Below are positions 5,043 through 21,229 of a stretch of 64,000 nucleotides of DNA, in pieces. Below the pieces are notes generated by a model, which was not told the origin of the DNA, did not search any database, and was given only the letters and a program-made list of their open reading frames with translations. Origin of the DNA: Opitutia bacterium (GTDB taxonomy: Bacteria > Verrucomicrobiota > Verrucomicrobiia > Opitutales > Opitutaceae); assembly GCA_016217595.1 (NCBI GenBank), contig JACRHS010000020.1, positions 1 through 64,000 of the forward strand, in the 5' to 3' direction. Every line of letters begins with the position of its first letter. The stretch's first letter is position 1. The position numbers were made by a program, and so were the translations under genes.

Positions 5043-6509
5043 ATGCGCTCCCGCTTTACTACCCGCCCGCGGACGGCCCTGCTGGCCGCATTGCTCCTGG
5101 TCGTCAGCGCTGTGGGAGCGCCACCGCCCAACGTCCTGTTCATCGCCATCGACGACCTGCGCATGAACCTCGGGTGCTTCGGCGATCCCGTCGCCCTCAC
5201 GCCCAACATCGACCGGCTCGCCGCGCGCGGTATCCGTTTCTCCCGCACCTACTGCCAGCAGGCTGTCTGCAACCCCTCGCGCCAGTCGCTGCTCACCGGC
5301 CGCCGGCCCGACACCCTCCGCGTCTGGAATCTGACCACGCACTTTCGCTCCACTCTGCCGGAAGCCGTCACGCTGCCGGCGTATTTCAAGCAACAGGGAT
5401 ATTTCGCGCAGTCCTTCGGCAAAATCTTTCACGGCGAACCGCCCATGGCCGATCCGCCCTCGTGGAGCGTGCCGGAGCAGTTCGAGTACGTCGCCAAGCG
5501 CGACGACTACCAGCTGGAGGAAAACCGCCGCCCCGGTGCCACCCAGAAGGCGGCCGCCACCGAGTTTGTCGACGCGCCCGACGACAACTATCCCGATGGC
5601 CGCGTGGCCGCCGGCGCCGTGGCCGCCCTCGGGCGACTCGCCGCCGCCGAGCGTCCGCAGCCTTTCTTTCTCGCGGTGGGTTTCATGAAACCCCACCTGC
5701 CCTTCACCGCGCCCAAGCGCTACTGGGATCTCTACGAGCATGCCCCGCTACCCCCGCCCGAGCCGGCTGCCGCTCCGACCGATGCGCCGCCGGCCGCGCT
5801 GCACAAATCGACCGAGTTGCGCGGCTACTCCGACATGCCCCGGCAGGGCGCGTTCACCGCCGAGCAGATCGCCCGCCTGCGGCGCGGTTATTACGCCGCC
5901 ACCAGTTTCACCGACGCCCAAATCGGCCGCGTGCTCGCCGAACTCGAACGCACCGGACTCGCCCGCAACACCATCGTCGTGCTCTGGTCGGACAACGGTT
6001 TTCACCTCGGCGAATTCGGCCTCTGGGCCAAAACGACCAACTACGAAAACGACACCCGCGTGCCCTTGATCATCGCACGCCCCGCCGAACCCCACGCGGG
6101 CGCCACCACCACTGCGTTGACGGAGCTGCTCGATCTTTACCCCACGCTGACGGATTTGTGCGGACTGCCCACGCCCGCCGTTCTGGAAGGCCGCAGCCTC
6201 CGTCCGTGGCTCGACGCGCCGACCGCGCCGAGCCGGCCCGCCGCGTTCAGCCAGTTTCCCCGCCCGTGGGTGTACCGCGGCAAACCCGATCTCATGGGCT
6301 ACACCGTGCGCACCGCCACGCATCGCTACGTGGAATGGCGCCGCTTCGGCGCCGCCGAAGTGGTCGCGCGCGAACTCTACGCCTACGATGGCGACCGGCT
6401 ATACGAGACGACCAACCTCGCCGCCCGCCCCGAGCACGCCTCGCTCATGGGGCAACTCGCCGCGCTGCTGCCCCCGGTCCCCCTTGCCCAACCCTCTTCC
6501 AAACCATGA
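5043..6509 (+). CDS. type I sulfatase, iduronate-2-sulfatase-like
   Basis: 488 residues counted from the ATG at 5043. Upstream in-frame starts would run back through the terminator into the sialidase gene, while 5043 opens a clean signal peptide (TALLAALLLVVSAVGA). The metal-binding Asp pair is at 37-38 in NVLFIAIDDLR. The formylglycine signature CNPSRQSLLTGRRP starts at Cys76 (C-x-P-S-R), where Cys would be converted to formylglycine. Later conserved parts are SFGKIFHG, GFMKPHLPFTAP and the metal/substrate motif SDNGFHLGEFGLWAK. The overall pattern resembles iduronate-2-sulfatase-type S1 enzymes. It would remove sulfate esters from host or marine glycans before glycosidases act. Its stop overlaps the next sialidase start (ATGA), so the two are translationally coupled. 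The true substrate is unknown. Confidence 0.88.
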   Translation: MRSRFTTRPRTALLAALLLVVSAVGAPPPNVLFIAIDDLRMNLGCFGDPVALTPNIDRLAARGIRFSRTYCQQAVCNPSRQSLLTGRRPDTLRVWNLTTHFRSTLPEAVTLPAYFKQQGYFAQSFGKIFHGEPPMADPPSWSVPEQFEYVAKRDDYQLEENRRPGATQKAAATEFVDAPDDNYPDGRVAAGAVAALGRLAAAERPQPFFLAVGFMKPHLPFTAPKRYWDLYEHAPLPPPEPAAAPTDAPPAALHKSTELRGYSDMPRQGAFTAEQIARLRRGYYAATSFTDAQIGRVLAELERTGLARNTIVVLWSDNGFHLGEFGLWAKTTNYENDTRVPLIIARPAEPHAGATTTALTELLDLYPTLTDLCGLPTPAVLEGRSLRPWLDAPTAPSRPAAFSQFPRPWVYRGKPDLMGYTVRTATHRYVEWRRFGAAEVVARELYAYDGDRLYETTNLAARPEHASLMGQLAALLPPVPLAQPSSKP

Positions 6510-7645
6510 AAACATCCGCCTCTATCCTTCGTCGCGTGCTCGGCCTGACTCTCCTCGGCCTGGCGTGCCTGCCCGGCTTGCTCCGCGCCGCCCCCGTCGA
6601 GCAGACCGATGTCTTTGTCTCCGGCCAGGACGGTTATCACACCTACCGCATTCCCGCCGTCATCCGCGCCAAGAACGGCGACCTGCTTGCCTTCTGCGAG
6701 GGCCGCAAGTCCGCCGGCGGCGACAGCGGCAACATCGACCTCCTCCTCAAGCGCTCCGCCGATGGCGGCAAAACCTGGAGCGCGCAGCAGACCATCTGGG
6801 ATGACGCCGAGAACACCTGCGGCAACCCCTGCCCCGTGCTCGACGAATCCACCGGCACGCTCTGGCTGTTGCTCACGCACAATCTCGGCATCGACCACGA
6901 AAAACAAATCGCCGCGCGCACCAGCAAGGGCACGCGCACCGTGTGGGTCGCCAGCTCCGCCGACCACGGCGTCACCTGGACCAAGCCCGTCGAAATCACC
7001 TCCGCCACCAAAGATCCGTCATGGACGTGGTACGCCACCGGCCCGGGCGTCGGCATCCAAATCCAAAAAGGTCCGCACGCCGGCCGCCTCGTCATTCCCT
7101 GCGATCACAATTACGACAATCCCGACGACCCCAACAAACGCATCTCCGGCTCGCACGCCATTTACTCCGATGATCACGGCGCCACCTGGAAACTCGGCGG
7201 CATCATCCATCCGCGCGTCAACGAATGCCAGGTGGTCGAGCTCTTCGACGATCGCGGCACGCTGCTGATGGACATGCGTTGCAACTCCGGCCGCAACCGC
7301 CGCGCCGAGTCCACCAGCACCGACGGCGGCGCCACCTGGACCGCGCCGACCGATTCCGCCACCCGCATCGAACCGGTCTGCCAGGCGAGCATCCTGCGCC
7401 ACGAAGCCGCGAAACTGCTGCTCTTCTCCAACCCCGCCTCCGTCAAGCGCGTCAACCTCACCGTCCGCGCCAGCGCCGACGATAACCGCACGTGGCGCGA
7501 TGTCGCTGTGCTGCACCCGGGGCCGTCCGCCTATTCGTGTCTGGTCGCGCTCTCGCCGACCGAGGCCGGCTGCCTCTACGAACGCGGCGAGAAAAAGCCC
7601 TACGAGAAAATCACCTTCGCCCGCTTCAGTATCGTCGCGCCGTAA
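6506..7645 (+). CDS. exo-alpha-sialidase (GH33-like)
   Basis: 379 residues, starting inside the sulfatase stop. A signal peptide (about 1-28, LGLACLPGLLRA) precedes the catalytic propeller. YRIPAVI at 47-53 supplies the first triad Arg, FCEGR follows, and Asp73 in GGDSGNIDL fits the acid/base position. Asp boxes include SADGGKTW (84-91), SADHGVTW, SDDHGATW and STDGGATW. The stretch WYATGPGVGIQ and the NECQVVEL / DMR block match bacterial sialidases. It is closely related to the sialidase at 19119, down to the GNPC and THNLG segments, so the two are paralogues. The role is cleavage of terminal sialic acids after desulfation by its operon partner. Confidence 0.9.
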   Translation: MKTSASILRRVLGLTLLGLACLPGLLRAAPVEQTDVFVSGQDGYHTYRIPAVIRAKNGDLLAFCEGRKSAGGDSGNIDLLLKRSADGGKTWSAQQTIWDDAENTCGNPCPVLDESTGTLWLLLTHNLGIDHEKQIAARTSKGTRTVWVASSADHGVTWTKPVEITSATKDPSWTWYATGPGVGIQIQKGPHAGRLVIPCDHNYDNPDDPNKRISGSHAIYSDDHGATWKLGGIIHPRVNECQVVELFDDRGTLLMDMRCNSGRNRRAESTSTDGGATWTAPTDSATRIEPVCQASILRHEAAKLLLFSNPASVKRVNLTVRASADDNRTWRDVAVLHPGPSAYSCLVALSPTEAGCLYERGEKKPYEKITFARFSIVAP

Positions 7646-7710
7646 AAGGCCGGCTGCGCGGCGGACGGAACGCCATTGCCTCGCTCCGTCCGCCGGCAAG
7701 GATGCGCCGC

Positions 7711-8365: not shown

Positions 8366-9304
8366 TCAGGTCGTCGCGAACCACTCCGGCAGGGCCGCCC
8401 GCGCGGCGGCGGCGAGCTGCGCCACCATCGCATCGGATGCGCCGCGGTACGGCCAGCGCAGTCGCTGGTTCATGCCGGGCAACCAACCGCCGGCGACGGC
8501 CGCGGCTTTGTCGGCGGCCATGTTGGCCAGACCGTGCACGGTGATGAGCGGCGCCACGTTGGCCTGCCAGAACGGCAGAATCCGACGCTCCCATTCCATG
8601 CCGACTTCGGGCTGGCGCACACAGAGTTCATACCACTGTTGCGCGCGCGCCGGATGGAGACAGGCGACATTCGAGTAAGCGCCGTGCGCCCCGCGAGCGA
8701 TCCCGCTCGCCAGCATGTGCCCCGGAATGAAAACCGACCACCGGGCGAACACCGGCTGCATCGCCGCGTACCACGCGTCGTCGCCGCCGGGCACTTTCAC
8801 GCCCGCGATTCCCGGCACCGCATCGGCCAGCCGCAGCCACTCCTCGGGATTCAACCGGCGTTTGGCGTGCGGCGGATTGTAGACGATCAGCGGAATCGGC
8901 GCGGCCTCGGCCGCCATCGTTTCGAGAAAAGCGATGATCTCCGGCCAGGAGGGCACGAACCAGTCGGGCAACACGACCTGAAACGCCGACGGCCGCAGCG
9001 CCTTGGCGCGGCGGAGCCGCTCGCGCGAAAGCTGCGGACTCATGTGCGCGGCGCCGACCTGAAACGGCATGCCGGCCCGCTCGCATTTTTCCGCGAGCAG
9101 CTGGTTCACGCGGTCAAACTCGTCCTCGGTCTGCGTGTAGAACTCGCCCGCCGAGCCGTTGGAATAGACGCCGTTGACCCGTGCGGCGATGAAGTGGTCG
9201 AGCTCAGCGCCGAGCAAACCGTAGTCGATGGAATCGTCGGCGTTGAGCGGCAGAAGCAGCGTGGCCCAGTTGCCGCGGATTTCGGAAGAGGATAATGGAC
9301 GCAT
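8366..9304 (-). CDS. DapA/NanA-family aldolase (dihydrodipicolinate synthase-like)
   Basis: 312 residues, class I aldolase TIM barrel. The Schiff-base Lys is K170 in AGVKVPGG and the catalytic Tyr is Y142 in VYNPP. The canonical GTTGE loop is changed to GSAGE (50-54), and the sequence departs from the two NanA copies at 11660 and 20303 (no GRDE segment, no SMTG after the Tyr motif). It is therefore a different subfamily and may act on another 2-keto acid aldol rather than N-acetylneuraminate. It is the last gene of the minus-strand operon 12574-8366, 13 bases after the MFS gene. Confidence 0.8.
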   Translation of the reverse strand: MRPLSSSEIRGNWATLLLPLNADDSIDYGLLGAELDHFIAARVNGVYSNGSAGEFYTQTEDEFDRVNQLLAEKCERAGMPFQVGAAHMSPQLSRERLRRAKALRPSAFQVVLPDWFVPSWPEIIAFLETMAAEAAPIPLIVYNPPHAKRRLNPEEWLRLADAVPGIAGVKVPGGDDAWYAAMQPVFARWSVFIPGHMLASGIARGAHGAYSNVACLHPARAQQWYELCVRQPEVGMEWERRILPFWQANVAPLITVHGLANMAADKAAAVAGGWLPGMNQRLRWPYRGASDAMVAQLAAAARAALPEWFATT

Positions 9305-11659: not shown

Positions 11660-12574
11660 TTAAGGTTTGCTCGCAAAATCGAAGAAGCCCACGGACGTCA
11701 GTGCCGCGCGCAACTCCTGTTCCATGGCCTCCGGCGGCTGACGCAAGGGCAGCCGCACCGGCCCGCAATCGACGCCGATGAGTTTCATGATCATCTTGCC
11801 GATCGGCAGACCGCCGCGGGCGTTCATCACATCGATGAAGGCGCGCGCCTTGGCCTGCTCCTTCGCCGCCGTCGCCAGATCGCCCGCCGCGAAGGCCTGC
11901 ATGACCTTCTGGTAAACCGGCGCCGCATAGTTGTAAGTGCTGCCCACCGCGCCGGGCGCACCCAGCTTCAACCCATCGAGCAGGATTTCATCGCGCCCGA
12001 AAAGGATCGCGTAACGCCCGTCGGCAAACGCCCGCGCCGACTGGTAATCGGCCAGATCCTCGTAGGTGAATTTCACGCCCACCAACGTCGGGATCTTGCC
12101 GTCCGCTTCGCGCAGGAAGTCGGTGGCCGTGATGTTCAGCCCGGTCATCGACGGCATGTGGTAATAAAAGAACGGCAGCGTGGGCGCAGCGGCCGCGACT
12201 TCGCGACACCACGCGACCAGCTCGACCACCCCCGGCGGCTTGAAGAAACTCGGCGCAATCGTGGCGATGGCGTCCGCGCCAATCTCCTGCGCATGCCGGG
12301 CGAAGCTGCGGCTCTCCTGAATGCTCGAATGGCCGACATGGACGATGAGCTTGAGCCCGGCCGGGGCGGCCTGCCGCCACGCCGAGGCCAGCTGCAAACG
12401 CTCGGTGGTGGTCAGACTCGCACCCTCGCCGGTGGTGCCGCAGATGAAAGCGCCCTTGACGTCGTTGCGCGCCAGCAACGTTGCCAGTCGCGGCACGACA
12501 TCGAGCGCCACCGCGCCGTCAGATTTAAAGGGAGTGAAAGGTGCGGCGACCAGGCCGTGGAGGGGAGACTTCAT
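11660..12574 (-). CDS. nanA: N-acetylneuraminate lyase
   Basis: 304 residues. Class I aldolase barrel with FICGTTGEGASLT (GTTGE at 46-50), catalytic Tyr138 in FFYYHMPSMTG, Schiff-base Lys168 in LVGVKFTYEDL, and the sialic-acid-lyase signature FGRDE (192-196) followed by GAVGSTYN. It cleaves N-acetylneuraminate to pyruvate and N-acetylmannosamine in the cytoplasm. It is the first gene of a four-gene minus-strand operon (NanA, Kelch mutarotase, MFS, DapA-like). It is a close paralogue of the lyase at 20303, with catalytic residues at identical positions. A degenerate operator lies 75 bases upstream. Confidence 0.92.
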   Translation of the reverse strand: MKSPLHGLVAAPFTPFKSDGAVALDVVPRLATLLARNDVKGAFICGTTGEGASLTTTERLQLASAWRQAAPAGLKLIVHVGHSSIQESRSFARHAQEIGADAIATIAPSFFKPPGVVELVAWCREVAAAAPTLPFFYYHMPSMTGLNITATDFLREADGKIPTLVGVKFTYEDLADYQSARAFADGRYAILFGRDEILLDGLKLGAPGAVGSTYNYAAPVYQKVMQAFAAGDLATAAKEQAKARAFIDVMNARGGLPIGKMIMKLIGVDCGPVRLPLRQPPEAMEQELRAALTSVGFFDFASKP

Positions 12575-12814: not shown

Positions 12815-12890
12815 GGGCCTATAGCTCAACGGTCAGAGCAGAGGACTCATAATCCTTTGGTTCTGGGTTCGAATCCCAGTGGGCCCACCA
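12815..12890 (+). tRNA. tRNA with CAT anticodon (Ile2 or elongator Met)
   Basis: 76 bases forming a full cloverleaf: acceptor GGGCCTA / TGGGCCC, D stem GCTC/GAGC, anticodon stem GAGGA/TCCTT with loop CTCATAA (anticodon CAT), and T stem CTGGG/CCCAG with TTCGAAT. The discriminator base is A and CCA is encoded. The loop context GACTCATAATC resembles tRNA-Ile(CAU), whose C34 is modified to lysidine, but elongator Met tRNAs share much of it, so the amino acid is left open. It marks the left border of the low-GC island, as expected for a tRNA integration site. Confidence 0.95.
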
Positions 12891-13188
12891 CGAAAAGTCA
12901 CTGTCCCCTTTCTGTACCCCTTTAGCAGTCCCGACGCTTTCGGCAGGTAACAACAGACGTCAGCAGTGGGACCGAGATTTTTTGGACATGGGTCACTAAG
13001 ATTTGCCCATGCAAATTGAATCACAATTGAGCTTCCCTGAAACGGGGCTCAGCGGCGAGAGGGCCACGGTGAAGCCCCAGCACCACTGAGTCCGGAAACC
13101 CATCTGCCCGGCACAACCACTGGTCTAGGCCAGCGCACCCCAGCGGCGTCCGACCGCATCGCCTTGAGGTGCGCTTCGGTTCGTGCCA
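12891..13188. other. tRNA-proximal island leader, no gene seen
   Basis: 298 bases between the tRNA and the first island gene, visibly poorer in GC than the nan operon. AT-rich patches at 12975-13030 could hold the promoter of the three-gene cassette. I found no convincing coding frame and no repeat of the tRNA 3' end. Confidence 0.5.
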
Positions 13189-13692
13189 ATGAATTCTACC
13201 CCTGCGACAATGATCAACCCTCCGCTGCGTTACCAAATTCTGCCGCTCGGTTCGCGTTATGAAATTACGTCGCCTACGGGGAAGAACCATTTTGAAGCAC
13301 CTGCTTCGACCGACAAGCTGAGCAAAATCTACGCGTTGGTGGACGGCCAAACCGTGCTCTATGTCGGCATGACTGGCCAACCGATGGCGAATCGACTACG
13401 GGGCGCATTCCAAGCCGCAGGAGAAACCGGGTATTACGGCTACAAGTGGAAGGCCCTCGGACACGCCATCGTTCTTCTCATCTGGATTTTGCCGGACTTA
13501 TTCCCACGCCACGAAGACAGAGAGGCAGTCGAGGCCGAAGTCATTTTTGAAATCAGAAACCAGTTGGGCTACTGGCCTCGCTGGCAAAACGAGATGCACT
13601 TCTGGAACGCTCAATCGACGACGCGAGCTATCGCGCAAAAGATCTTTGGTGACATCAAAACTGAAGTCGGAGGTGGCACTGCGTCCCCATGA
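13189..13692 (+). CDS. GIY-YIG-like nuclease protein, first gene of island cassette
   Basis: 167 residues from ATG 13189 (GTG 13183 and ATG 13210 are alternatives in frame). The core KIYALVDGQTVLYVGMTGQ fits the GIY-(x)10-YVG strands of the GIY-YIG fold. It is followed by the Arg-bearing ANRLRGAF helix, and then by a Glu/Asn-containing region EAEVIFEIRNQLGYWPRWQNEMHF, where the metal-binding Glu and the terminal Asn of the family are expected. Proteins of this fold cut DNA as homing, repair, restriction or phage-defence nucleases. The stop overlaps the next gene's start by 4 bases (ATGA), implying translational coupling with the PLD nuclease. Its GC content is lower than the flanking nan genes. 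The specific role is unknown. Confidence 0.65.
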   Translation: MNSTPATMINPPLRYQILPLGSRYEITSPTGKNHFEAPASTDKLSKIYALVDGQTVLYVGMTGQPMANRLRGAFQAAGETGYYGYKWKALGHAIVLLIWILPDLFPRHEDREAVEAEVIFEIRNQLGYWPRWQNEMHFWNAQSTTRAIAQKIFGDIKTEVGGGTASP

Positions 13693-16226
13693 GCACCGCG
13701 CCCGTTCAACCGCGCACAGCACTGGATCTGATCACGCAAGCGAAGTGGGAGAGCGCTTTGTTCGGCACATATGCTCTTAGTCTCTCATTCTTCGAAAGCA
13801 GCCTGTTGAAGGAGGGTTTGATTCGCCACGGATGCCGCTCAATTGATGTTGTTGCTGATGTTGAGGGCTACAGCGCTAGTTTGAGTGAACGGAAGTCGTC
13901 ACGGGTTGGGATTGAATACCGCCTAATTCCCGCCGCCCAAGAAGGCGGGATTTTCCATCCCAAGATCACGCTACTCTCGGGACCCTCGGGGAACTTCCTG
14001 CTGATTGGCAGTGGGAATCTGACGCACGGCGGTTTCGGGAGAAATCTAGAGGTGCTGGAAATCGTAAGCCTTGAAATCCAACCCAGCCTCTATCCCCAGC
14101 TCCGGCTCCTTTTTGAATCACTTGGCCAACGACCGAAGATCCGATTCGGCGAGAACGATTGGCTGAGTCGTTGGGTAGCGTGGTGTGAACAAAAGGGCGG
14201 TAGCGTCCAAGATGACGGCGCGTTTCCACGCTTAGTTCATTCCACCATCCAGCCAGCGGCTGATCAACTGGTGGCGGAGGCCAAGCGACACGGAGTGGTT
14301 GCTGAACTCCGCGTGCTCTCGCCTTTCTTCGATCCCGACGGGGACGGCATCCTTACTTTCGCGGAGCGTCTTGGCGCGCAAAGGCTGGTGGTCGGATTAC
14401 CAGAAGGCCGAGAGGAGTTATCCTCGTTTCCGTTTTCCAAACATCGGCAAACCAAAGTGACCATCCTCGCAGCAACCGTCATCGCTCCCGCGCCCGACCG
14501 TCGCCTCCACGCAAAATGGTTCGAACTCGTCTTTGAAGACGGCCATCGGCTCGTGCTGACAGGCAGCGTCAATGCGACCCGGAAATCACTCATCTCTGCC
14601 GACAACATTGAGATTGGCTTGCTGCGGCGCGAAGCAGGCGATGCCGCTTCACCGCTAGCGTGGACCAGGTGCGCAACTCCGAAGAAGCATGTGCCGTGCG
14701 CCTTCTTTGCCAACGCGGGAAAAGGCGTCGCCATCATCCACAGCACACTCCAAATGCCCAAAGAGATTCGCGGGACGATTCTCATGAAGGGCACCGTCGA
14801 GGGTAGATGGGAAGGAACTCTGGAATGGCCTGATGGAACTCAATTAACCGTCAAAGTTGACGCAGACGTCGACGGAAATTTTCACACCGTCGTCCCTTTT
14901 TCCGGCCAGGAAGCTTCGTTCACCAGCCTGCAACTGCAGCTACTGCAGGTCTCGACGGGACTCTTCGCACGCGGTTGGGTGCAAAATGAAACTCTCTTGG
15001 AAGTGGGTCGAAAAGGATTCATTTCGGCGTCTTCGCTTTCGCGCATCGTCGCAGGCACTAGCGGGATGGAAGACGACATCGAGCTCTTCACGAATCTTAC
15101 GAGCAAGATCCACGACTTGCTGGCTGTTTTCTCGGAGTCTCCGAGCTCGGTGTTGCCGTCGAAATCATCGACCGATGGAGCGCCCGAGGGTGGAAACGAA
15201 GACCCGAACCAAAACAGAATCGTCGATCTTGCCGAACTGACCCCTGGGTCGCGCCGTTTGGTCCAACCGCACTACAGCGTGCCGGGATCATCTGAAGATG
15301 GCGAAATTCTGGTCAAGCTCATGCGCCTGCTTCGTCGAAGTCTCCTTCGAAATGAATCCGCTCCCGCAGCAGCGGGTGGATCGTCGAGCGACGAAAGTGC
15401 TGAACTCGAAAATCCGAACAACAACGAAGAAGCCTCCAATACCGCGCAGAAAAGAAAGCAACAGCGGATGTTGGACGCCCTGAGCGTGTTCGAAAGACGA
15501 CTAATCGAAATCATTGATGCAGCTTCGCCAGGGAACGAGCGGGGATCCGCTTTCGTGATGTGGCTCGAAATCGCACTGCCACCTCGGGTCAAGCGGCTCC
15601 CAGAACGAGTAGAGGCGATCAACTTCTTACGGCAGTGGTTCTTTGCCGTCACGGAGACGCAACATGCTTCGCACGGCCCAACGGGGTTGGCGGAGTATGT
15701 GGCCGCCGTCGGTCTCTACCTGACGCTAACTTTGATTGCGCGAACTTCAGTCGAGAGTGCCGAACGTCGGCGTGGAATCGCGATGATCCACGAACGCCTG
15801 TGTGCGTATTTTCAAGCCGAGCTGACCGAGGATTTACTTCGCTCGGTAAATGTCAGCGAGCAGCACTGGCCGCCGATCCTGACGATTCTTCTCGGAGAAT
15901 TGCCGCCCAAACACGGCGTCAGTTTCGGACTCTCGAACTTACTCGCTAGCCCGACGATTGAGCAGCAGCTCAAACTGGTGGAATCTGCAGTGCGCGGACG
16001 GACGCCGTTGCCACCTGGGCTCTCGCTTGCTTCATGCCGATTCGGCAAAGAATTTCTCAAAGAGGCAGAGCGCGGGCGGCGGCCTAGCGCACAGCGTGCG
16101 CTAGCCAATTCGACCACTTGCCCAGCTTGTCACTTGCGCATGAGCGCAGAATCCATTGCAGAATTGAGCAGCGTCCGGTTCTCGCAGTGCAGCAACTGCG
16201 GCAAATATCTCTACGCCACAACCTGA
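13689..16226 (+). CDS. phospholipase D-like (double HKD) nuclease with C-terminal zinc ribbon
   Basis: 845 residues. Two HKD-type half-sites can be read. The first is His90/Lys92 in IFHPKITLL with GSGNLTHGGF (GSGN 107-110). The second is His274/Lys276 in RLHAKWFEL with TGSVNATRKS (GSVN 292-295) and a trailing NIEIG. This arrangement forms one PLD-superfamily active site, as in nucleases such as BfiI, Nuc and the PLD proteins of defence systems. The middle (about 320-560) is unassigned. A low-complexity Ser/Glu/Asn-rich linker lies at about 480-600, and the last 40 residues hold CPAC...CSNC, a zinc ribbon. The gene starts inside the GIY-YIG stop and ends 4 bases before the third gene. Broad defence or DNA-processing function is inferred; no named system was matched. 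Confidence 0.75.
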   Translation: MSTAPVQPRTALDLITQAKWESALFGTYALSLSFFESSLLKEGLIRHGCRSIDVVADVEGYSASLSERKSSRVGIEYRLIPAAQEGGIFHPKITLLSGPSGNFLLIGSGNLTHGGFGRNLEVLEIVSLEIQPSLYPQLRLLFESLGQRPKIRFGENDWLSRWVAWCEQKGGSVQDDGAFPRLVHSTIQPAADQLVAEAKRHGVVAELRVLSPFFDPDGDGILTFAERLGAQRLVVGLPEGREELSSFPFSKHRQTKVTILAATVIAPAPDRRLHAKWFELVFEDGHRLVLTGSVNATRKSLISADNIEIGLLRREAGDAASPLAWTRCATPKKHVPCAFFANAGKGVAIIHSTLQMPKEIRGTILMKGTVEGRWEGTLEWPDGTQLTVKVDADVDGNFHTVVPFSGQEASFTSLQLQLLQVSTGLFARGWVQNETLLEVGRKGFISASSLSRIVAGTSGMEDDIELFTNLTSKIHDLLAVFSESPSSVLPSKSSTDGAPEGGNEDPNQNRIVDLAELTPGSRRLVQPHYSVPGSSEDGEILVKLMRLLRRSLLRNESAPAAAGGSSSDESAELENPNNNEEASNTAQKRKQQRMLDALSVFERRLIEIIDAASPGNERGSAFVMWLEIALPPRVKRLPERVEAINFLRQWFFAVTETQHASHGPTGLAEYVAAVGLYLTLTLIARTSVESAERRRGIAMIHERLCAYFQAELTEDLLRSVNVSEQHWPPILTILLGELPPKHGVSFGLSNLLASPTIEQQLKLVESAVRGRTPLPPGLSLASCRFGKEFLKEAERGRRPSAQRALANSTTCPACHLRMSAESIAELSSVRFSQCSNCGKYLYATT

Positions 16227-16230
16227 AGCG

Positions 16231-17820
16231 ATGAACCTCGATACCTCTCTACTACCAGTTGGTCCACGCCTCATAGATACTCTCACAGAGGAACGCGGTG
16301 GCGTCGATTATCTCAACCTCAGACAGGTCAACCTCGACCTCATGGTCGCATGCATACCGGGCCAAAACAACGTTACTTCAAACGTTCGGTCTTACAGCGT
16401 GATGTGCTGGATCTATTGGAAGATCTTCGAAGAAACCGAACGCCGAAAGAAAAGGAACACCTCAACCGAGGAGATTCGTGTTTTCCGCGAGAAGGTTGAA
16501 TCGTATTTTCTTTGGGGCCACCTGCAAAACCAAGTCGGTGGTGTCGCCGGGACAAGATCAAGGCCGCCAAACAATGGACGGGGGAAAGTAAGCTTGCAAT
16601 TTGCCGACTGGAAGCGGTCGGCGGATAACACAAGCATCCAAGCTGCCGTTCGATACGGCCCTTCGCTGACGGAGCTGGGACTCTTGGAGAAGAGCGCTCC
16701 AGGCGTCTATCACGTCACAGAGACCGGGGAAGCGCTGGCGGCTGCACTCGACCAACAACTGAGGAAAAGTACAGCCTACGATAAACTGTCAGACTTATCG
16801 ACTGACACGGGAACGTTGGCCGAAGCCGAAGCACTTTTCCCTTTCTGGCGATCCGACAGAACCAGCCGACCGGAGCAAATAGCGATGCAAGCTGTGCTGT
16901 TTGATTTTCAGCAGATCGACGACATCCGCTCGCCGATGGGTCGTCGCAGCGCCTTCATCTACGCGATCACGCAAGTGCTGCAGTCCAATCGCAGCCCACT
17001 TAGTCTTGAGGAAATTCGGGACGGACTGGCTTATCGCCGGACCCGGAAGGGCGGGTCGATTGATCTACCGCCTGGACCAAGAGAGGTAACAGACTATTGG
17101 TTCATACTTCAGTCGCGCCAATTACAGCGCATCGCTCTGGAAGTCGCGATGGGGTGGATGGAGGAAAAAATGCAGGGCGATGATTGCGCGAGTATCGAGG
17201 ATGTCGTGCGGGCTGCCACTAAACTGCTCACTAAGCCGCCTAAGATCCAAGATTCTTCGCCGCTGTTAGCTTTGGTTCGGAGCAGCGCTCGCCTCATATC
17301 GACAGAGCAGGAGTTCTTCGTCGCCATCGACGACGATCCCGAGCGTCATGACTTACAATCTGTTGCCTCCTGCATCGTTGATCTGCTCGGAGAAAGTTTC
17401 GACGAGGCGTTTCGCGAGTCGATGCGAGCGCTGTTCCTGCTGAGCAACTGCGACGCTTGGTTGAGATCCGACTCTCGTTACAAGGATTTGATTCTACGGG
17501 GCGGAGCGATGCGAATTTCGCTGCGCTATTGGTCTGAAACGGTCGCCAAGTTTCAACACGCGCCCATCAGTGATTTTCTCCGCTACTTTTTCGAAAGCCT
17601 GATTTTTAGCCAGCATCTCGCGGTGGCGACCAATCGCTTCGATGGAGAAAGCTCCCGGCTAAGGTTCACCTTCGGCGAAGAGGGATTGGAATCGTTGGTC
17701 GATGAGCCCTGGCGTCCCGGCATCACCTTTGACCACCTTTACGCGCTCCTCCAGTTGCTGGTCAGTTCCGGCGTGCTAATGATCGACGACAAGGAGCGCT
17801 ACGAGTGTGTCTCAGGTTAG
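16231..17820 (+). CDS. unrecognised protein, third gene of island cassette
   Basis: 529 residues with no signal peptide or membrane segment. I do not recognise a family. A possible winged-helix stretch occurs around residues 140-175 (RYGPSLTELGLLEKSAPGVYHVTETGEAL), the sort of module seen in DNA-binding accessory proteins. The N-terminus includes SYSVMCWIYWKIFEE and an early basic helix (TERRKKRN). The remainder is predicted helical, with several short acidic patches. It starts 4 bases after the PLD gene, so all three genes form one operon. It could be a target-recognition or structural partner of the two nuclease-like proteins, but this is inference from position. Confidence 0.6.
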   Translation: MNLDTSLLPVGPRLIDTLTEERGGVDYLNLRQVNLDLMVACIPGQNNVTSNVRSYSVMCWIYWKIFEETERRKKRNTSTEEIRVFREKVESYFLWGHLQNQVGGVAGTRSRPPNNGRGKVSLQFADWKRSADNTSIQAAVRYGPSLTELGLLEKSAPGVYHVTETGEALAAALDQQLRKSTAYDKLSDLSTDTGTLAEAEALFPFWRSDRTSRPEQIAMQAVLFDFQQIDDIRSPMGRRSAFIYAITQVLQSNRSPLSLEEIRDGLAYRRTRKGGSIDLPPGPREVTDYWFILQSRQLQRIALEVAMGWMEEKMQGDDCASIEDVVRAATKLLTKPPKIQDSSPLLALVRSSARLISTEQEFFVAIDDDPERHDLQSVASCIVDLLGESFDEAFRESMRALFLLSNCDAWLRSDSRYKDLILRGGAMRISLRYWSETVAKFQHAPISDFLRYFFESLIFSQHLAVATNRFDGESSRLRFTFGEEGLESLVDEPWRPGITFDHLYALLQLLVSSGVLMIDDKERYECVSG

Positions 17821-17821
17821 A

Positions 17822-18100
17822 CTACGCCGCCACCGTTCGCCCTTGCGGCGAGAGTTGCGGTACATCCAGCGGCTCTTGGTTCAAAGCTTTCCGGCCCAGT
17901 AGCGATGGCACGATGCGCCTCGTTTTGTCGGCATAAAATGCCGCCGCTATAGCCACGGACCCGTGCCGAAACACCTTCGACGCGGCATAAAACCCGTAAC
18001 CCTCCGTCAACAGCCGCCCGTATTCCTTCCTGAGGGTGTGGGTCGGTGTGTGAGTTTCACTGACATGGCAGCGTTTCGTTTCGAGCGCTGGTGATCGCAG
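17822..18100 (-). pseudogene. tyrosine recombinase (integrase) C-terminal remnant
   Basis: Reading the minus strand from just after an in-frame stop at 18101-18103 to the stop at 17822-17824 gives about 92 residues. They include THTLRKEYGRLL (box II, H-x-L-R), YAASKVFRHGSVAIA (box III RH) and AAFYADKTRR, with the nucleophilic Tyr in the expected place. These are the last catalytic blocks of a phage-type integrase. The N-terminal DNA-binding half and the first catalytic Arg are absent. It lies 2 bases beyond the third cassette gene, on the opposite strand, and marks the right edge of the low-GC island. No start codon with context is evident, so it is treated as a broken gene. Confidence 0.7.
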
Positions 18101-20302: not shown

Positions 20303-21229
20303 ATGAAATCTCGATTCCGCGGTCTCGTGGCCGCACCTTTCACGCCCTTCAAATCTGACAAGTCGATCAACCTCGACGTCATTCCGGCCTATGCCCGGCT
20401 GTTGCGCGACAACGGCGTGACCGCCGCCTTCGTCTGCGGGACGACCGGCGAAGGCCTCTCGCTGACCATGCAGGAGCGCAAAGATGTCGCCGAAGCGTGG
20501 ATGAAGGTCGCGGACGACAAACTGAGCGTGATCGTGCACGTCGGTAACAATTGCATCAGCGAGGCGCAGGAGCTCACCCGCCACGCCGCCAAGATCGGCG
20601 CGGCGGCCGTCGGCGCCTTTGCCCCGTGCTTCTTCAAGCCGCGCGACAACGACGAGCTGGTCAACTGGTGCGCCGCCATCGCCGGCGCCGCGCCCGAGAT
20701 TCCTTTCTATTACTACAACATCCCCTCGATGACCGGGGTGAATTTCAAAGTGGCGCCGTTCCTTGCCAAGGCCGCGGGCCGCATCCCGTCGCTCGCGGGC
20801 GTGAAGTACACCTACGAGGATTTGGAAGACTTTGAGGAGTGCGTGAAATTCGAAGGCGGCCGCTACGATCTGCTCTTCGGTCGCGACGAACTGTTGATGG
20901 AAGGCTGCGGACGCGGCGCGCTCGGCGCGGTGGGCAGCACCTACAATTATGCGGCGCCGCTCTACGTGAAAATCATGGAGCACTTGAAGGCCGGCAAGAC
21001 CCAGGAAGCCCGCACGCTGCAGGACAAGGCGATCAAGATGATCTCGATCTGCGCGAGCGTCGGCGTCACCCACCAGTCGGCGACCAAGTCGATGATGGCC
21101 TGGCACGGTGTGGATTGCGGTCCGATGCGTTTGCCGGTGAGCACGATCACGCCCACCCAGTCGGCCGAACTCCGCCGCAAGCTGATGGAGATCGATTATT
21201 TCGGCACCGCCTGCCGGCCCGGCGCCTGA
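20303..21229 (+). CDS. nanA: N-acetylneuraminate lyase
   Basis: 308 residues. FVCGTTGEGLSL (GTTGE 46-50), Tyr138 in FYYYNIPSMTG, Lys168 in LAGVKYTYEDL and LFGRDE identify a sialic acid lyase that yields pyruvate plus N-acetylmannosamine. All catalytic positions match the copy at 11660 exactly, so the two lyases are close paralogues. It is the second gene of a sialidase-nanA operon, 8 bases behind the sialidase. Why two lyases are kept is unclear; they may be induced by different regulators or act on different sialic acid forms (Neu5Ac, Neu5Gc or Kdn). Confidence 0.92.
   Translation: MKSRFRGLVAAPFTPFKSDKSINLDVIPAYARLLRDNGVTAAFVCGTTGEGLSLTMQERKDVAEAWMKVADDKLSVIVHVGNNCISEAQELTRHAAKIGAAAVGAFAPCFFKPRDNDELVNWCAAIAGAAPEIPFYYYNIPSMTGVNFKVAPFLAKAAGRIPSLAGVKYTYEDLEDFEECVKFEGGRYDLLFGRDELLMEGCGRGALGAVGSTYNYAAPLYVKIMEHLKAGKTQEARTLQDKAIKMISICASVGVTHQSATKSMMAWHGVDCGPMRLPVSTITPTQSAELRRKLMEIDYFGTACRPGA

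Follow-up and report, generated by a model that had tools for sequence, protein, structure and literature searches.

A conserved gene pair encoding a Tdp1-like PLD-superfamily protein and a predicted winged-helix partner recurs among bacterial defense genes

Restriction endonucleases of the BfiI and NgoAVII/CglI types carry one PLD core per chain (as dimers) and a B3-like DNA-binding domain; CglI and NgoAVII also use a methylase and a helicase. The HKN motif pattern is known from Tdp1. Among defense systems, Azaca encodes a PLD subunit (ZacB) between ZacA and a helicase (ZacC). The ARMADA system, with a YprA helicase, a BrxHII-like helicase, and a PglX-like methylase, is described in PMC12458937. 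Here we analyzed a 64,000-nucleotide stretch of an Opitutia bacterium genome (Opitutaceae; contig JACRHS010000020.1 of assembly GCA_016217595.1), hereafter called the window, in which a PLD-type gene lies in a cassette of three genes with the following features:

Gene A: 13189..13692, + strand; 167-residue GIY-YIG-like protein (ATG start at 13189, alternative GTG start at 13183).
Gene B: 13689..16226, + strand; 845-residue PLD-superfamily phosphodiesterase.
Gene C: 16231..17820, + strand; 529-residue partner of B.
tRNA-Met (cat): 12815..12890, + strand; left edge of the island (ARAGORN, Rfam RF00005).
C-terminal remnant of a tyrosine recombinase: about 17825..18061, − strand; right edge of the island, matching integrase C-termini.

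Genes A and B overlap by 4 bases (13689–13692), 4 bases separate B from C, and the cassette has a GC content of 0.557, compared with 0.647 for the remainder of the window. These values agreed with an earlier sequence-only reading of the window, which had described three ORFs so spaced in a low-GC island, flanked by a tRNA and an integrase remnant and set within a sialic acid locus. Both flanks were confirmed, the tRNA by ARAGORN and Rfam and the remnant by matches to the C-termini of 430–530-residue tyrosine recombinases in related genomes (best E 5e-8). The remnant is about 60–80 codons long and keeps the H..R, RHG, and Y residues, and it had no match in Pfam or among plasmids. An att-like duplication of the tRNA end was looked for and none was found, the contigs of same-genus genomes used for an empty-site comparison break at that place, and a promoter and terminator scan performed no better than shuffles. 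The annotated neighbors fit the sialic acid setting: three NanA/DapA-like genes, a sialate-type MFS gene, NanM-like and sialidase-like genes, and a GntR/LacI-type regulator. All three NanA/DapA-family paralogues fall in a 13-kb section of this locus (8366–9304, 11660–12574, and 20303–21229). Genes A, B, and C are foreign to this locus, as had been claimed, and homologues of B and C are concentrated among defense genes. Chance ORFs were excluded because of the ORF lengths and the homologues in many phyla. The source assembly comprises 3.59 Mb and is 68% complete. In a genome of the same genus (L148, G403:C162, about 5196–5494), a tRNA-Met is interrupted near the anticodon by about 221 bases, perhaps an intron or a small insert, which gave no Rfam match.

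A single-sequence search with the gene C protein found it in 3 of 388 genomes of the phylum, the window genome included, and on seven plasmids of Rhizobium and sphingomonads; a single-sequence scan of the genome contigs gave no match. A profile built from nine homologues (A1) recovered 58 loci in the genome contigs, mostly from Alphaproteobacteria and also from Verrucomicrobiota, Acidobacteriota, Myxococcota, Bdellovibrionota, and Pseudomonas protegens. After dereplication, B immediately preceded C on the same strand in 45 of 49 C loci, across five phyla. In the remaining four, B was split or truncated (L009 and L017), or the locus lay on a short contig, near its end, with no intact B in the stretch (L037 and L055). 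The B of R. leguminosarum RCAM2802 (L009, 8223–10509) consists of two overlapping ORFs, likely owing to a frameshift. The two genes overlap in 30 loci, by 4 bases in 19 and by 7 bases in 11, and they have diverged in step: their distance matrices were correlated at r = 0.96 (n = 46), and 0 of 2000 permutations gave a value as high. Gene A was absent beside B and C in all other C loci of the set, and an order-wide search of 293 genomes found A in four and C in two, with both only in the window genome. The conserved unit is therefore two genes, B and C, not three. The gene-neighborhood search proposed with the sequence-only reading thus upheld the recurrence of B with C and not the three-gene system that it had envisaged, since no other C locus has A and relatives of A occur elsewhere. 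Carriers of the pair include conjugative or mobilizable plasmids, and the C tree mixes phyla, a topology that, on the sequences compared, is as expected of mobile genes. The C of the window groups with one Opitutaceae and another Verrucomicrobia sequence (support 98–100). Viral contigs contained no relative of C or A, and phage records gave none for B and one weak match for A.

The gene B protein matched PLDc_2 in Pfam (9.5e-8), and its AF2 model (pLDDT 86.6) was divided into the following regions:

Residues 1–338: Tdp1-like tandem PLD core (H90-K92-N110, H274-K276-N295, E121, and E308).
Residues 345–433: beta-sandwich.
Residues about 434–795: helical, with a disordered linker at 487–574.
Residues 801–842: CxxC...CxxC zinc ribbon.

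Tdp1 was the top fold match, aligning over residues 3–338 of the model with Z 20.6 (rmsd 3.6, 306 aligned residues; Foldseek 8e-8), and other PLD proteins reached Z 17.3 and below. The NgoAVII R protein matched the model by Foldseek at 2.9e-4, and a 42-row profile of B searched against the PDB matched R.BfiI (7.7e-4); PDB sequence searches with the small profiles A1 and A2 gave nothing useful. The residues H90, K92, N110, H274, K276, N295, E121, and E308 were invariant in 59 homologues, the spacing from K to N was mostly 17 residues in both motifs, and the zinc-ribbon cysteines C811, C814, and C837 were conserved. B had been read as a double-HKD PLD protein with a zinc ribbon. The fold and the ribbon cysteines were as described, whereas the motifs are HxK...GSxN (HKN) and contain no D. 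With two HxK...N motifs and a tandem PLD fold, B shows the features by which Tdp1-like PLD nucleases are recognized.

Helices made up most of the AF2 model of C (pLDDT 90.7, pTM 0.89), in which two or more winged-helix-like units could be discerned:

Residues about 50–178: winged-helix-like unit.
Residues about 212–275, joined with 479–529: winged-helix-like unit.
Residues 281–475: helical bundle.

Searched by Foldseek, this model matched no PDB chain at E ≤ 0.001. The best PDB match by VIA-align was the recognition part of N.BspD6I (residues 1–263), at Z 8.3 with 208 aligned residues and an rmsd of 5.5, a suggestive match only, its Z being lower than helical models commonly reach by chance; further structural matches, for residues 50–178 and for 212–275 with the C-terminus, were to winged helices at Z 4–6. 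A sequence link to the RE_AlwI family was also looked for by hhalign and not found (probability 0.1%). C had no match in Pfam, NCBIfam, or PADLOC models. The profile and fold searches suggested earlier for this unrecognized protein thus provided no significant match and no named family, and the gain was a confident winged-helix model. A comparable tandem HTH/wHTH plan is found in BREX BrxA and DUF4007 proteins (PMC12839542). Judging from the model, C is probably a DNA-recognition or sensor subunit. Positions occupied by R, N, Q, E, and H are invariant in C; they could serve contact with B or with a ligand and suggest that C may do more than bind DNA.

To characterize the neighborhood of the pair, up to four proteins on each side were scanned with PADLOC at E ≤ 1e-15. 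The scan returned 608 model matches over 324 neighbor proteins (by batch, 299 over 120 proteins, 109 over 126, and 200 over 78), whereas stretches taken as controls in 14 of these genomes gave 9 over 110 proteins. These counts refer to models and not genes; one gene can match dozens, and the ratio overstates the enrichment. The control and neighbor hits differed plainly in kind. Systems beside the pair included Gabija, Septu, Mokosh, Zorya, BREX, Dpd, Druantia, DISARM-type, pAgo, AbiEii, DRT, and type I RM. In L025 the pair lies inside a type I RM operon, in the order HsdS-HsdM-B-C-HsdS-HEC-07-HsdR; in L015 B-C follows BrxL of a BREX operon; and a Myroides plasmid carries a homologous pair (hhalign 97.7%, full length) in reversed order inside a type I RM operon. 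Three loci that branch separately in the C tree (L012, L064, and L066) have an ARMADA operon next to the pair; it contains YprA- and BrxHII-like genes and, in L064 and L066, a PglX-like gene. The adjoining ARMADA operons lie at about 11.7–20.9 kb in L064 and L066 and at 1–7196 in L012. In L090, a DUF4917 protein is encoded directly downstream of the pair (6692–7696), and HsdM/HsdS and a PDC-S39 gene lie on the other side. The enrichment near known defense genes that the earlier reading had proposed to look for was therefore present, and its opposite, homologues always found as single genes in non-defense contexts, was contradicted by both the pairing and the neighbors. B and C are likely to have a defense role.

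The gene A protein contains the motif KIY-x9-YVG, followed by a conserved R and E. By hhalign it matched a GIY-YIG profile with a probability of 63% over 34 columns, a partial match; there was no match in Pfam, and a PDB sequence search gave nothing useful. The earlier label of GIY-YIG-like is thus plausible from the motif and the partial profile match, without a counterpart in Pfam. In three Opitutaceae genomes, relatives of A with 34–36% identity were located inside ARMADA-like operons:

L091: 7797–8312.
L092: 7899–8471.
L093: 7874–8380.

Each lies between genes for a DrmD/BrxHII-like helicase and for a PglX/DrmMI-like methylase, and upstream there is a YprA/DruE-type helicase gene. Downstream of them, two of the three genomes have an ATPase-type gene, which is LmuB-like in L092 according to a PADLOC scan of that locus. 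GIY-YIG is not mentioned in the main text of the ARMADA paper (PMC12458937), and small GIY-YIG-like proteins are now linked to ARMADA-like operons. By these sequence relationships gene A belongs to a defense-associated family and not to the B-C pair, and it is probably an extra nuclease acquired as a lineage-specific addition. A 744-residue patatin-like protein in L076 (1102–3333) has a pre-patatin part that weakly resembles gene A (E 5e-4) and is a possible nuclease-lipase fusion.

We consider it fairly likely that the B-C pair is a conserved and mobile module, previously undescribed, that acts against phages or other foreign DNA. Our literature search, which covered a minority of subscription papers and preprints, found no description of the pair, and a later one may exist. 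The chances are evenly balanced that the pair is a two-subunit, metal-independent restriction-like nuclease in which C recognizes and B cuts. C would bind the target, be it a DNA site, a modification, or a structure, through its winged-helix units and would position or license B. B would act as a metal-independent phosphodiesterase with a two-HKN active site of the Tdp1/BfiI type and would cut DNA via a phosphohistidine intermediate. Neither a methylase nor a helicase is encoded, so protection of the host DNA must have another source. This could be a host methylase belonging to an RM, BREX, or ARMADA system close by, a type IV-like preference for modified DNA, or activation only during infection. 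In the window genome, an overlapping start joins A to the operon, where A may serve as a second nuclease. More tentatively, the pairs may represent a widespread unnamed class of restriction-like immunity with two subunits and no need of metal, in which a Tdp1-like double-HKN nuclease is directed by a separate tandem winged-helix protein for recognition or sensing, has no methylase or helicase of its own, and also plugs into RM, BREX, and ARMADA operons.

Several other explanations were weighed against this two-gene module. The pair might be an accessory that works only with a modification-based system (type I RM, BREX, or ARMADA), for example as an extra nuclease reading its methylation. The embedded or adjacent pairs of L025, L010, L015, L012, L064, and L066, and that of L090 beside HsdMS, are what this explanation predicts, but most loci, the window included, show no such system in the stretch examined, and the association may reflect only the clustering of defense islands; we regard it as unlikely. 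It is quite improbable that the pair is a divergent branch of Azaca, with B as ZacB, C as a remote ZacA, and the ZacC helicase lost or supplied in trans. In its favor, B matched ZacB at 3e-11 in the window, with relatives reaching 2e-15; the C-like partners from Myroides and Streptomyces matched ZacA at 7e-4 and 1e-3; one C homologue matched a ZacA profile at 1.2e-3; and both arrangements put a PLD gene beside a mostly unclassified partner. However, the B match was confined to the PLD core (hhalign 97.7% for the core of B vs ZacB), C had no direct match to ZacA (PDLC03828) and, profile against profile, a probability of 19% over 67 N-terminal columns only, and C matched no PADLOC model. The gene order also differs, and ZacC was absent from the window cassette, its profile matching at C loci solely the BrxHII helicases of the ARMADA operons in L012, L064, and L066.

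A role of B in Tdp1-like repair or processing, in which it would remove proteins from DNA ends (e.g., 3'-phosphotyrosyl links) under the guidance of C, either for DNA maintenance or in attack on protein-bound phage or plasmid intermediates, agrees with the margin of Tdp1 over other folds and with the K-to-N spacing. We nevertheless think this very unlikely, because the enrichment in defense islands, the sporadic mobile distribution, and the embedding in RM operons misfit housekeeping repair, and the sequence profile points to R.BfiI. There is likewise only a slim chance that the genes are a toxin-antitoxin or abortive-infection pair, in which B would be a toxic nuclease held by C and released on infection: tight coupling, overlapping genes, and matched divergence fit such a pair, and the winged helices of C could bind its own promoter, but a toxin gene in first position and a 529-residue partner are unusual for a toxin-antitoxin pair. 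As for A, B, and C being an obligatory three-gene system, the 4-base overlap couples A to B and the A family is tied to defense operons; the lack of A at every other C locus and the occurrence of its relatives without B and C make this highly improbable. As for the two-gene module, no Pfam, NCBIfam, or PADLOC model matches C, so current defense finders would miss the pair, although five or more phyla have it and conjugative plasmids carry it. If confirmed, it would add a Tdp1-like metal-independent type of nuclease to bacterial immunity, offer a small system of two proteins that is amenable to biochemistry, and raise the question of how a restriction-like enzyme without a methylase spares its host.

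The earlier statement that no named system matches the set was borne out, in that no PADLOC model of a named system matches it (PADLOC dates from 2023). DISARM had been singled out for its PLD protein DrmC; B matched DrmC-type PLD only weakly (1e-3), and the DrmA/DrmB helicase parts and the methylase were absent from the window cassette, as stated, whereas the nearest named relative proved to be ZacB. Azaca shares with the pair a related PLD subunit, an adjoining partner of unclassified fold, and, probably, a defense role, but it has the order A-B-C, unlike B-C with the PLD gene first, and a helicase gene; beyond a weak N-terminal motif C is not detectably ZacA, and B adds a zinc ribbon and a long helical tail. 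The PADLOC candidate PDC-M27 resembles the pair in its PDC-M27B, which matched the PLD core of B at 5e-9 (up to 8e-12 in relatives), whereas its helicase PDC-M27C has no equivalent in the window cassette and C matched no PDC-M27 model. BfiI and the NgoAVII/CglI enzymes have a PLD-type core that matched B by profile (BfiI) and by Foldseek (NgoAVII R), but a single B chain holds two such cores, and its partner C is a separate protein. The closest solved fold is that of human Tdp1, with two HKN motifs in one chain at similar spacing; the identity is 13%, and B adds the beta-sandwich, helical tail, and zinc ribbon. In its model, C shares tandem winged helices with BrxA, DUF4007, and FokI-type recognition domains, but no sequence similarity to them was found, and C exceeds them in size and has a long helical bundle. 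Around the window cassette no gene of an ARMADA system was detected, whereas elsewhere A lies inside ARMADA-like operons and B and C lie beside ARMADA operons. Compared with these systems, the set is probably a new variant, a PLD-based defense module of two genes with a lineage-specific GIY-YIG-like addition.
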